This document shows, in pieces, positions 35,948 to 43,229 of a stretch of DNA of 64,000 bases. Under the pieces are notes generated by a model. It did not search any database. It was not told where the DNA came from and was given only the letters and a program-made list of their open reading frames with translations. Numbering within the stretch: the stretch's first letter is position 1; each line of letters starts with the position of its first letter. The DNA is from Owenia fusiformis (Eukaryota; Annelida; Polychaeta; Sabellida; Oweniidae): NCBI GenBank assembly GCA_903813345.2, contig CAIIXF020000011.1, forward strand, positions 27,274,166 to 27,338,165, written 5' to 3'. The position numbers and the translations under genes were made by a program.

Positions 35948-38335
35948 ATGGATGCTTACCGACCATACAGGTAGGTCTACCATTTGTAAATGTATAAGGG
36001 TCATCTGAACACAAGCTGAGACTTACACACCTCGAATGAAACATGTTAGTCCCAGACACAACGGACCATTTTTATTCCCGATTGTAAACGGTGATTGCAT
36101 TTTCAGATTTTCTAGCGCAAGTTCAGCGTCCCCAGAAGACTTGTTAGAAAATCCTCATAAAGAAATTGAGCTAGAAGAACCAACTGGGACGGCTCAACAA
36201 CTAGGATTTGGAAATGGTATTAACACTGCACCAAACCACACTGATGTAAATCTCGGTGACCTTCACAGGACTAAAGACCAAACTTATCTCAACAATAGCG
36301 ATGGTGATGACTTAGATGATGATAGGTCGGCAAGTGATAATCATGATACACCGGGAAATTCCTCAGGAAGTTACGATGCTACGCATGGAGTTGTTGACGA
36401 TACTGACTATGGCCCACATGTTGCTGTACTTACTGTTGGTGACGCCACAGATCCCTATTCTGATCAACATGCTCCGACTGATCAGGATACATCTTCTCGA
36501 AATTTACAAGATATGTGGTCACCTGGTCACCAGGAAGGACACGCCAAGATTGTATACGCCGATGCCTCTACTTTCGACGGATCTGAGATGTCAACAGGGT
36601 TTTTAAGGTTAACAAGGAGATCTAAAGAAAATGTCATCTTGGCTGATATAGGTACCTCAACAACTGATCATGATGAGGTTGGTCGTTTTTTGAGATTTTA
36701 ATTGTATTGAATCTATCTATTTGATAAATTCATTTTACCTTTTTGTGTTTGATAACTATTCAACTGAAAATATATCCAGTAAAGAAAATCATCATCTGTC
36801 CAAAACAAGAAAAGATATTAAATGTTCAAAGTTGATAAATAATTTTAGAACCATATATCTAGATGTAATATTTATGTAGATTTCAAGATATCGCTTTGCC
36901 TAAATTTTGAATATTTAATGACGAAAATCAAGACTATTTCTCCGTCTACATCTGCATCTCGCCTATTGTGACAAAACAGCAAGAAAAGACCACATTTTAG
37001 TAAGTGTTACATTAACAACTCAAGAAAGAGAATTATTTGGAAAAGATCAGGTTTGAAATGGCAAATGATCTAGACAGCAGTATCTTTATTCTAACGATAA
37101 ATACAATTGTGTTTTCTTACATTTGTCCGAAAATCATAATACGACCTTATGAACTACTGCACTTCATTCCTATATTTAAGAAACTCATTTTAAATCTAAA
37201 ATCGGCCAAACCCTAGAAATGCAGAGCCTGTTATCTAATACAGGGGCGGATCTGGGAACCAACAAAGGGGGAGGGGCAAATTCAAGTCAGAGAAAAGAAC
37301 TTCCGCGGAAAAAAATTTGGGCCCCTAAAGCCCAAAAGTGGGACCAATTTTTGAAATTTTGAGGCCCATTTTCTTCAAAATTTGGCCTGAAATTAAAAGA
37401 TAAGGCCTTAAAGGCCCAGTAATGACCAGAAAGGCCCACTTTTTGGGGCCTTAAGGCTTTAAATGTTTTTTTTGTGCCAAATTCTTTTTTTCTGGGTCCA
37501 CCCAAGGGGGGGGGGGCAGCCCCCCAGATCCGCCAGTGTAATATATAATACAAAATGTTCAGATGCTGTCTTTCATAAGCTGGGTGGATATAATTTTAAC
37601 ATGTGAGATGTAAATAAATATTAAGTATACGTGCATAGGCTACACATGGGCACAGGACTTAATAACAAATGAAACCTTGACTAGTGTATGTAGTATAGAT
37701 CTACAATAATGTAAATAATCGAAAAATACGTTTTTTTGTATTTACGTTCCCATGATAAACATTTGATAAAATAGTAACCATAAATATGTCCGTTATGAAA
37801 ACAAAACAATATATTGATGTTTTGGGTATTTACATTTTCAATGATAAATATTTACAAATAATCATTTACAGGTCCATGATGAAAACAATATGTTGACGTC
37901 ATTTGGTCCGCCTGAAACTGTCCAACCAGCTGTGCCTATACCTAGTCATGTGACTCAAAGCCATGGTGACCATGATCACGTGAAACAACGTAACGTTGAC
38001 TTAAATGACGTGAGCTTAAGATTGCAGCATAGAAGTAAAACCGACACAGTGTTGTCAAAACCATCTTCGCCGAAACTAAATTGGAGATTTTGTTTTACTT
38101 TAACAACATTAATATTTGTAGTCATGTTGGTGCTACTGGCGCTATTGTTCTGTAAGTACATGTTCAATTTGACATCATGTTCATATTAACGTTTCTGAGC
38201 GTCTTGGAATTAAGGATATGGAAAAGCGGAAAATGCAAGTGACTGCAAATAAACGCTTGTTCTAAAATAAAGAAATAAGCAGTTTCACTAGATGATATAT
38301 TTTTATTTTTTCAGTAATGTTCACCAGGGCATCAA
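35948..38335 (+). CDS. Membrane amylase gene: cytosolic tail and transmembrane anchor (exons 1-4)
   Basis: Exon 1 (ATGGATGCTTACC... to CAG/GTAGGT) gives MDAYRPY plus a split Arg, joined in phase to the acceptor at 36106. Exon 2 encodes an acidic, Asp/His/Thr-rich tail of low complexity ending TTDHDE. Exon 3 opens VHDENN, continues polar, then KLNWR followed by [21 protein letters not shown], a clear membrane span, with donor GTAAGT. Exon 4 is a 21-base microexon (LMFTRAS) with TTTTTTCAG and GTAAGT. No signal peptide is seen. If the tail were a separate gene it would lack a stop codon in phase, because the phase-1 end of exon 4 fits the amylase exon exactly. Confidence 0.72.
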
Positions 38336-41300: not shown

Positions 41301-43229
41301 TTTAGTTGATCCAATGTTAGCAATACATACAGGTATGTAGGATACTATAATTCACCAACATGATGTCACCCCTTTATCAGTGCTTTCAAATTACATATAG
41401 CACTTAAATATCCTATGGCCTAACAGTGAGAAGACATTTTTTGAAAAGTTACCAACATTTGATATAATTTGTGTGAATGAGAATTAGTTCAACCAATCGA
41501 GTCACGAAAGTGCCAGTACACTTAAAGGGTAACAGTCGAATGTCTACTGACGTCATCCATTCTCAAAGTGACTCTGATACTTTTGGATGATGCCTTGAGT
41601 GTGCGTTTGGTGAATGCAATGCACACTAAGTAATTTAGGTTTAACCTTAATATACGTCTTCATGGTGACTTCAGGTGCTATGTATGGTACTGGGAGTAGT
41701 AGTACTGATTATGAGATAGACTTCCCCTCACCACTACCGTCAACACCTGGTCCGACTCGTAAGCCTGGAGAGGGAGACTTTCAGAGAACTGTTATTTTTC
41801 TTGAAGGAACTACTGTGATGGGGCAGAACCTGTTCATCCGGGGAGGAATAGCACATGATAAGAGAGAAGGTGTGTGTCGTGATATAATTAAAGTCAATGA
41901 TTATAGTGACCGTTCATTTATATAAATAATCATAATGGACAACGTTTGGAAAATCTAATGACCAAAACTCCTATAAGCCATACAAATCATGATCAATAAA
42001 TCAGTGATGTATAAGATAGGTATCATTATAATTTATTTTAAAGAAGGATTGATTCGATTAAAGAATTCTACCAAAATACTTGTGCAGGAATCGTTTAAAA
42101 TGCATGTAGAAATGTAGTTTGGTATTTTTATTTAGGATGCACCGGGGAGGCTTCAACTAGCGCATGCGCAATCACAATAAAACAGAACAGTCTTGGAGGT
42201 TCCGCCCACTACGGGCCTTATAGAGATTGGGGTAGAGGAGACAACTTTTTAGATTGGTAAAATACAGTTCTATGAACAGTGATCGTTGCTATTAAGATGA
42301 CAAGAAACTTGTTAATTAGTAAGAACCGAAGCAAAGGTAGCTGGAGTGTCAAATTTTGCGAGATTAAAGGCTAATTGAAGAATATCATATTAAATATCTG
42401 AATAAATATATTTCAGTAAAATATTGAGGACGATTTGCTCGCCTCACCATGCTGGCTATGCCAAAATTGAAGTGTCCCCCATTATTGATTGTCTAAATTG
42501 ACCAGGTAGTGAATGTGAAACGGATATAACTTTATATAACAACTTTGATATTTAATTAATCATTAAATTAATTTTTAAGGTATGGGGTAGAATCTACGCA
42601 AGGCATGTATAGCGGGGAGGCCGCATCAGGAACGCCTTGTGCCTGGACAACCAATGACGTCACGCATGATGGACATCAACCTCTCAATGTGTAAGTATGG
42701 TTAAATGAAGATTGGGAGGGGAGCGTTGCATTGCATTTCTTTGCGTGTCATATCATTTTTGGGTGCCGAGGGTTCGTTTCATTGAACTCTCCAAGAACTC
42801 GAAGAATCGTTTTACAACTGTTATTTTTAAAACTCGGTTGGTCCTTCACCTTGTTTCATCTCATAATTTGTTTCTACAAGTGCTCCAACTTTATGAGCGT
42901 ACTAATACATTTGATATGATGAATGGATTTTATTCATGAATGTCTAATGTACTTTATCCCTTACTCTTTAATTCAGCTACGGAGAGCACTACTGGATGAC
43001 TGATCTAAACATGGACTGCTCGGAGACTGAAGACGGTTGGTTTGAGTTGAAAGGCTACATAACAAATTCTGACAACAATTGGGAAGGAAATATTGAGCAG
43101 GTTGACAGTTGCGAGGGAGCTGCAAGTGGATCCCGGCCATATAGCATGGGCAATCACATGGCCCGGTGTGGTTACATAAATGTGTTCAGATGGAATGACA
43201 ATGGATGTCGCATTGAAACATTTAGCTGA
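35948..43229 (+). CDS. Membrane-anchored alpha-amylase with C-terminal accessory module (11 exons)
   Basis: Exons 35948-35970, 36107-36677, 37872-38151, 38315-38335, 39068-39204, 39737-39888, 40152-41332, 41675-41869, 42136-42256, 42580-42690, 42977-43229 join in phase at all ten junctions into 3,045 bases: 1,014 residues plus stop. Parts are a hydrophilic acidic tail 1-270, one hydrophobic segment about 271-293, alpha-amylase 300-788, a proline-rich linker about 795-825 and an accessory module 826-1014. More positive charge lies before the hydrophobic segment ([13 protein letters not shown]) than after it, predicting type II topology with the enzyme outside. Amylase hydrolyses internal alpha-1,4 bonds of starch and glycogen. 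The first exon is less certain: translation could instead begin at the ATG at 36036 without the 136-base first intron. The duplicated GPCR unit starts just downstream. Confidence 0.8.
36678..37871 (+). other. Intron 2 of the membrane amylase gene
   Basis: The donor GATGAG/GTTGGT and acceptor TTTACAG/GTCCAT agree in phase 0. No other exon is seen inside; a 298-base hAT-like MITE (37241-37538) accounts for the only open frame. Confidence 0.6.
37241..37538. mobile_element. hAT-like MITE in amylase intron 2
   Basis: Inverted ends CAGGGGCGGATCTGGGAA and CCCCCAGATCCGCCAGTG. Flanked by identical 5-base repeats TAATA (37236-37240 and 37539-37543). The interior repeats GGGCCT and GGCCCA motifs. A minus-strand 88-codon frame is a by-product. 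Confidence 0.7.
39068..41332 (+). CDS. Membrane amylase gene: GH13 animal-type alpha-amylase catalytic domain (exons 5-7)
   Basis: Exon 5 gives [20 protein letters not shown] and GPKGFCGVQ. Exon 6 gives [34 protein letters not shown] and [13 protein letters not shown]. Exon 7 begins [12 protein letters not shown]. These are the hallmark blocks of animal alpha-amylases. The catalytic triad is intact: nucleophile Asp in [12 protein letters not shown] (about residue 499), acid/base Glu in AMEVIDNG (535), and Asp in [12 protein letters not shown] (601). Chloride ligands match too: Arg in GFRVD, Asn in DNHD, Arg in AFRNEVDG. The calcium ligand Asn of INH and the glycine loop GHGGGG are present. 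About 489 residues, against 496 in mature pig amylase, so A, B and C domains are complete. The Met at 40180 is internal, not a start. Confidence 0.93.
41675..43229 (+). CDS. Membrane amylase gene: linker and C-terminal accessory module (exons 8-11)
   Basis: Exon 8 enters in phase 1 (split Gly), encodes a Ser/Gly then Pro-rich linker ([16 protein letters not shown]), then [20 protein letters not shown]. Exons 9-11 add [40 protein letters not shown] and [19 protein letters not shown] before TGA at 43227. The module is about 190 residues with paired-looking Cys and many Trp and Tyr, as expected of a carbohydrate-binding fold. From memory, some invertebrate amylases, including one from the clam Corbicula, carry a C-terminal extension of about this size; I cannot confirm homology without a search. 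Junctions: ACTTCAG, ATTTAG, TTTTTAAG and ATTCAG acceptors, all in phase. Confidence 0.8.

Follow-up and report, generated by a model that had tools for sequence, protein, structure and literature searches.

Animal alpha-amylases are secreted via a cleaved signal peptide. Other glycosidases, and proteins that share their fold, are held in membranes. The SLC3 heavy chains rBAT and 4F2hc combine a cytosolic N-terminus, one anchor and a GH13-fold ectodomain; their ectodomains are not amylases, and a Cys near the membrane disulfide-links them to the transporter light chain. Sucrase-isomaltase, a type II glycosidase of family GH31, has a short tail and a single N-terminal transmembrane segment, with the enzyme outside the cytosol. 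One such segment and a non-cytosolic enzyme domain are also described for the GH31 enzyme NET37 (PMC8063059). Insect GH13 alpha-glucosidases are predicted to be membrane-held as well, through an anchor segment removable with the last exon or through a predicted glycosylphosphatidylinositol anchor, and the alpha-amylases of the same study are described as potentially extracellular and soluble (PMC8063059). Here we describe a gene of the annelid Owenia fusiformis that probably encodes a membrane-anchored alpha-amylase. It lies on the plus strand of a stretch of 64,000 nucleotides (contig CAIIXF020000011.1, positions 27,274,166 to 27,338,165; hereinafter designated the window). The window gene shares the catalytic and C domains and the key residues of the animal chloride-dependent alpha-amylases of family GH13 (medaka 3vm5, pig and human pancreatic) and differs from them in a longer signal that lies behind a 268-residue tail. 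Its predicted membrane attachment resembles that of the GH31 enzymes, which are of another family and specificity, and of the insect GH13 enzymes, which are not alpha-amylases. Literature searches (titles and abstract openings) returned no alpha-amylase of this tail-and-anchor layout, a weak negative that is not proof of absence, and the words membrane and transmembrane do not occur in the available parts of two papers on bilaterian amylases (PMC3096672, PMC7003070).

Eleven exons rebuilt from splice signals and homology yield a single frame of 1,014 codons plus stop at window positions 35948-43229, and all ten introns are GT-AG; this independent reconstruction agrees with the preliminary description of the locus, which had joined eleven exons at ten phase-matching junctions. 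The encoded protein begins with a 268-residue acidic tail, continues with a hydrophobic segment (residues 271-294) and an entire alpha-amylase of animal type, and ends in an extra C-terminal domain. We consider it likely, from sequence features, that this is one gene for a membrane-anchored alpha-amylase made at the endoplasmic reticulum (ER) with a signal anchor, the tail being cytosolic and the amylase and C-terminal domain lumenal or outside the cell. In such a scenario, an ordinary secreted amylase gene with a signal-peptide exon would have gained upstream coding exons in the same frame, lengthening the old signal peptide on its N-side to ~24 hydrophobic residues behind the 268-residue tail. 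The protein would be synthesised on ER-bound ribosomes, and the ER machinery would treat the segment as a signal anchor and leave it uncleaved, so that the amylase would begin a few residues from the membrane, in the lumen or at the cell exterior, and might digest starch or glycogen at the cell surface or in a digestive vacuole. The evidence read directly from the DNA comprises the frame, its splice sites, the coding signal of the tail, the active-site motifs, the signal peptides of the paralogues, the phase-1 intron in three of them and the kinship with the nearest one; from it we infer a full-length mRNA, an uncleaved anchor, enzyme activity and action at the cell surface or in a digestive vacuole. 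The tissue of expression and any role of the tail are conjectural, and so are the regulation through the tail and the glycogen-processing function suggested in the preliminary description. Animal alpha-amylase being a textbook secreted enzyme, a type II-anchored member, if real, would mean that this lineage digests starch or glycogen at the cell surface or in a digestive vacuole. Such a gene would in addition be a clear natural example of how added upstream exons can turn a signal peptide into a membrane anchor, and the five paralogues of the same genome, with their plain signal peptides, would serve as controls.

In the enzyme portion, an alignment of 485 residues pairs positions 305-789 with positions 2-494 of medaka amylase (PDB search, E 1.2e-183), and a Pfam search of the protein at E up to 1 returned only Alpha-amylase (PF00128, E 8.5e-11) and Alpha-amylase_C (PF02806, E 2.1e-13). 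As the preliminary description had stated, the catalytic triad and the chloride ligands are intact. The catalytic Asp, Glu and Asp (D197, E233 and D300 in amylase numbering) are kept in motifs aligned to medaka at residues 495-504 (ten residues), 533-538 (AMEVID) and 596-607 (twelve residues). The Arg, Asn and Arg at the chloride-ligand positions (Arg195, Asn298 and Arg337) are identical to those of medaka, and the calcium site is in an intact motif. The enzyme is predicted to hydrolyse starch.

A genome search found at least five other loci with an amylase catalytic domain among the best 45 of 52 candidates; they were cut out for comparison (hereinafter designated L001 to L005). The ectodomain Cys nearest the anchor in the window gene, Cys309, has a counterpart, judged by eye, in all five of these paralogues and is therefore likely the amylase's own. 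The parallel with SLC3 heavy chains drawn in the preliminary description thus stands for the layout, and no kinship was seen: in contrast to the SLC3 ectodomains, the window gene has intact amylase active-site motifs, and no SLC3 protein name occurs among the best 60 of 66 PDB matches. Since searches with the tail and anchor gave no relative among the best-scored candidates of the genome, in Pfam or in PDB, an SLC3 origin was rejected for lack of evidence.

The hydrophobic segment is the only span of the protein whose 19-residue hydropathy reaches 1.6 or more (peak 3.02, best value elsewhere 0.98), in line with the single segment described before. Its uninterrupted hydrophobic run measures 25 residues, against 9-12 in the five paralogues under one rule; the rule breaks at D, E, K, R, N, Q, H, P, G, S and Y and thereby shortens L001, which has a Gly in its core, and some others. 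The peak 19-residue hydropathy of 3.02 likewise exceeds the 1.20-2.29 of the paralogues. The 11-residue flank on the N-side has three positive residues. By hydropathy criteria only, the full-length model therefore has the make-up of a type II single-pass protein, with one internal span, positive charge flanking it on the N-side and no signal peptide at the N-terminus. Under the orientation rule based on positive flank and charge, such an N-terminal tail stays in the cytosol; the tail is expected to do so here because its N-side flank is positive and it is long and acidic.

All five paralogues carry an ordinary signal peptide. In L001, L002 and L003 it has a short exon to itself (17, 13 and 15 codons), whose phase-1 end meets an intron directly upstream of the mature enzyme; these splice sites were judged by eye, and L001 and L002 have weak donors. 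In L004 and L005 signal peptide and mature start share one exon. The intron after the anchor of the window gene has the same place and phase as that of L001 to L003, and the anchor occupies the position of the signal peptide. An intron in the signal-peptide region, at position -6, has also been reported in molluscs by the bilaterian intron paper (PMC3096672). The nearest paralogue is L001 (C7:9.09 Mb), which is 64% identical in exon 7 and groups with the window gene with support 98/97 in a tree of 23 rows (the window gene, the five paralogues, medaka and 16 of 19 bacterial loci, three short ones having been dropped); the deeper order of the animal rows is unresolved in this tree. L001 shares the phase-1 intron place and the extra C-terminal domain with the window gene, but its signal peptide is normal, an in-frame stop lies 6 codons before its ATG, and no tail was found there. 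With plain signal peptides in all five paralogues, the simplest reading is that the tail was gained late. Most likely, then, the anchor is the former signal peptide, lengthened in frame on its upstream side by new exons, and the product is a derived type II membrane amylase.

The tail exons show coding signal. When exon 2 was shuffled 2,000 times by dinucleotides, no shuffle was open in any of the three frames, compared with the 190 open codons observed, and the 252 nt of exon 3 upstream of an internal in-frame ATG at 38124 stayed open in that frame in 3 of 2,000 shuffles (14 of 2,000 in any frame). Under a codon model whose training set comprised 2,775 codons of other exons in the genome (paralogue amylases, two receptor genes and one EF-hand-like frame), exon 2 scores at most -0.140 per codon in five frames and +0.122 in the predicted one, a score reached by none of 2,000 noncoding samples; the tail part of exon 3 scores +0.024, the highest of six frames, and is reached by 2.7% of noncoding samples. 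G+C content by codon position is 0.56/0.44/0.29 in exon 2 and 0.53/0.42/0.39 in exon 7, the first position being high in both. The tail's composition (46 D+E and 19 K+R among 268 residues) bears out the acidic tail noted earlier; it lies on the disordered side of the charge-hydropathy line, and the catalytic domain does not, so the tail is probably disordered. Residues 1-308 (tail, anchor and first amylase residues) searched against the genome at E up to 10 gave two matches, both the gene itself, among the best-scored candidates. The tail with most of the anchor had one sub-cut-off Pfam match (E 0.14) and one chance match in PDB, Junctophilin-2 (E 1.7). A transposon origin of the tail was considered as well and is unsupported, the genome search having given no second copy among the best-scored candidates.

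Several observations weigh against an uncleaved, full-length product. Synonymous-codon usage alone is uninformative for the tail, 28.6% and 7.0% of noncoding samples reaching its values, and the 27 codons of the anchor score -0.27 per codon, as is typical of hydrophobic AT-rich codons in the codon model. Just past the hydrophobic core lie two sites compatible with the (-3,-1) rule of signal peptidase, FTRA/SS and RASS/F, both supplied by micro-exon 4. If the peptidase cuts there, after TRA or ASS, tail and anchor would be made, the amylase would be released and the tail would remain with a hydrophobic stub, the whole acting as a very long signal sequence. That a single residue can decide cleavage of a signal anchor, as given for sucrase-isomaltase in a yeast study (PMC8277137), lends some weight to this outcome. 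The (-3,-1) rule is permissive, however, having also passed sites inside hydrophobic cores and in the mature enzyme, and both the run length and the peak hydropathy of the segment lie well outside the paralogue ranges given above. According to the same study, signal peptidase of yeast acts less well on signal sequences whose N-termini are longer and whose cores are more hydrophobic, and the forms left uncleaved become anchored in the membrane (PMC8277137). Release by cleavage is in our judgement unlikely; run length, hydropathy, flank and the yeast data favour an uncleaved anchor over a cleaved signal peptide.

A second point against that product is the ATG at 38124 itself, which has G at -3 and would give a signal peptide of normal length, 16 residues. 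The preliminary description had stated that there is no signal peptide; this holds for the full-length model, with a start well upstream of the anchor, and fails if translation begins at 38124. On such an account, transcription from intron 2 or exon 3 would yield an ordinary secreted enzyme, the only functional amylase of the locus, and the upstream frame would be used little or not at all. The stretch between this ATG and the phase-1 intron spans 16 codons (9 from exon 3 and 7 from micro-exon 4), close to the 17, 13 and 15 of the three paralogues. Upstream, by contrast, the nearest in-frame stop is 92 codons away, 84 of them in exon 3, as against 6, 9, 19, 7 and 34 codons in the five paralogues. 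An internal start leaves unexplained both the 84 open codons of exon 3 and the 190 of exon 2, with their matching frames and coding bias, and also the hydrophobic extension directly before the Met: the 12 residues in question have a mean hydropathy of 2.44, which only 0.73% of 20,000 stop-free noncoding 12-codon samples reach. Since noncoding DNA rarely matches this value, an accidental in-frame extension of an old signal peptide is unlikely, and we regard a gene that works solely from 38124 as distinctly improbable.

Exons 1-3 might instead form a separate tail-anchored membrane protein of ~300 residues: the frame would run through the exon 3 donor and terminate at 38190 or shortly before it, polyadenylation would take place near 38248 or 38266, and the amylase would be on another transcript. 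An open frame at 37848-38189 fits this account, and AATAAA occurs at 38248 and 38266, within 80 nt past the read-through stop, which again counts against a single joined product; AATAAA is common locally, however, with 10 occurrences in 8.6 kb. With GTAAGT, exon 3 has a strong donor, whose phase is that of the paralogue introns, and an amylase on its own transcript would need another ER-targeting exon. We scanned 33000-39067 for ATG frames reaching a phase-1 GT, with a cut-off of hydropathy of at least 1.5 and at least 5 of 6 donor matches. Among 76 candidates three pass (ATG 35645, 37563 and 38124), with 5 more rows at 4 donor matches, and ATG 38124 of exon 3 comes first in both hydropathy and donor match. 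The other two, at 35645 and 37563, are weak signal-exon candidates that nevertheless pass the same cut-off and count against the anchored reading. In a narrower scan of 38152-39067, three rows from two start codons exceed hydropathy 1.3, with donors GTGCGA, GTGATC and GTCCCG. As a control at 4 donor matches, the scan recovers the known signal exons of L002 and L003 and misses that of L001; a signal exon with a weak donor could therefore escape it. A separate signal-peptide exon for the amylase was thus set aside, none in 33000-39067 being as good as that of exon 3. The open frame of exon 5 (open reading frame 38995-39216) has no ATG upstream of the amylase. With the best signal exon being exon 3 and no ATG in the exon 5 frame, an amylase without exon 3 probably lacks a route into the ER, and two separate transcripts are very unlikely.

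The gene might also produce tethered and released amylase together. Skipping of exon 4 would give the anchored form, its inclusion a form shed at TRA/SS or ASS/F, and the 38124 start a plain secreted enzyme, while the acidic cytosolic tail would direct tethered molecules to a digestive surface or vacuole. We know of no animal alpha-amylase that switches between anchored and secreted forms. In mouse it is common for one gene to give transcripts with different signal peptides or membrane spans (PMC1449889), which makes mixed output plausible. The exon-4 switch is weakened because the skipped form keeps one site that passes the permissive rule, LLFC/F, and we consider the scheme as a whole unlikely. 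Among these alternatives, the type II membrane reading proposed in the preliminary description remains the best supported, by the coding signal of the tail, a hydrophobic run that is, by the rule above, about twice as long as the paralogue cores, the positive flank and the lack of a better upstream ER-targeting exon in the scanned interval; the internal ATG and the possible cleavage sites leave room for secreted forms.

Two parts of the gene model deserve separate mention. Micro-exon 4 has both a strong acceptor and a strong donor; the window as a whole has 9 such pairs, counting this one and both strands, which gives an expectation of ~0.06 for 38152-39067. Because its length is 21 nt and skipping keeps the frame, its inclusion cannot be tested by frame. 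The 5′ end (exon 1) is the weakest part of the model because an in-frame ATG at 36036, 5′ of the exon 2 acceptor, offers an alternative start. Coordinates are collected in Table 1.

Table 1 Features of the window gene (window coordinates; a slash marks the exon-intron boundary)
Feature	Position	Strand	Remarks
Exon 1	35948..35970	+	23 nt, MDAYRPY(R); putative start codon, A at -3, G at +4; donor CAG/GTAGGT
Exon 2	36107..36677	+	bulk of the predicted acidic cytosolic tail; coding score and shuffle test
Exon 3	37872..38151	+	end of tail and most of anchor; phase-1 end, as in signal-peptide exons of three paralogues (by eye)
Exon 4	38315..38335	+	21-nt frame-neutral micro-exon, LMFTRAS
Exon 5	39068..39204	+	amylase catalytic domain begins
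Exon 6	39737..39888	+	amylase catalytic domain
Exon 7	40152..41332	+	remaining catalytic domain (catalytic, chloride and calcium residues) and Alpha-amylase_C
Exon 8	41675..41869	+	linker, then beginning of extra C-terminal domain
Exon 9	42136..42256	+	extra C-terminal domain
Exon 10	42580..42690	+	extra C-terminal domain
Exon 11	42977..43229	+	end of extra C-terminal domain and stop codon
Hydrophobic anchor	38088..38322	+	residues 271-294, being 21 residues plus LMF of exon 4; intron 38152-38314 inside the span
Internal in-frame ATG	38124..38126	+	alternative start giving a signal-peptide-like sequence of 16 residues

The extra C-terminal domain (residues ~820-1014) follows the C domain. Searches in Pfam at E up to 0.1 and, for its last 122 residues, in PDB at E up to 1 gave no match. 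The domain is also present in L001, L002 and L003, and none was found in L004 or L005 among the matches listed. The bilaterian amylase intron paper mentions an extra C-terminal domain in some species (PMC3096672). Further copies occur elsewhere in the genome. Copies of 34-39% identity lie in one locus (L007, G000:C11:28721500-28731400, minus strand) and near C11:28.744, 28.795 and 28.798 Mb; no catalytic-domain match appears in the stretch cut out, among the matches listed. One reading frame of L007 encodes a PAN domain (PF00024, E 2.1e-6), followed by a linker rich in Ser and Thr and, as judged by eye, the beginning of the extra C-terminal domain. Another copy (L006, G000:C1:46983000-46991400) is 38-57% identical by exon; the 7 kb before it, which partly read N, gave no match to an amylase exon. 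Across the genome, a Pfam search that listed neither the window gene nor the five paralogues gave 20 matches at other GH13 loci on contigs C1, C2, C4, C5 and C8, several with long open frames.

Elsewhere in the window, long serine-rich frames followed by a SAM-domain frame (PF00536, E 2.1e-10) lie upstream of the amylase gene at 24518-30688 on the plus strand. Just 3′ of it, at 43816-44828, an element with 204-nt inverted arms, 91% complementary, surrounds a helix-turn-helix frame (PF16087) and looks like a DNA transposon. Two single-exon genes for rhodopsin-family receptors (PF00001) follow at 47590-48591 and 60255-61262, ~12.7 kb apart; they are very alike by eye and are probably a recent tandem duplicate.

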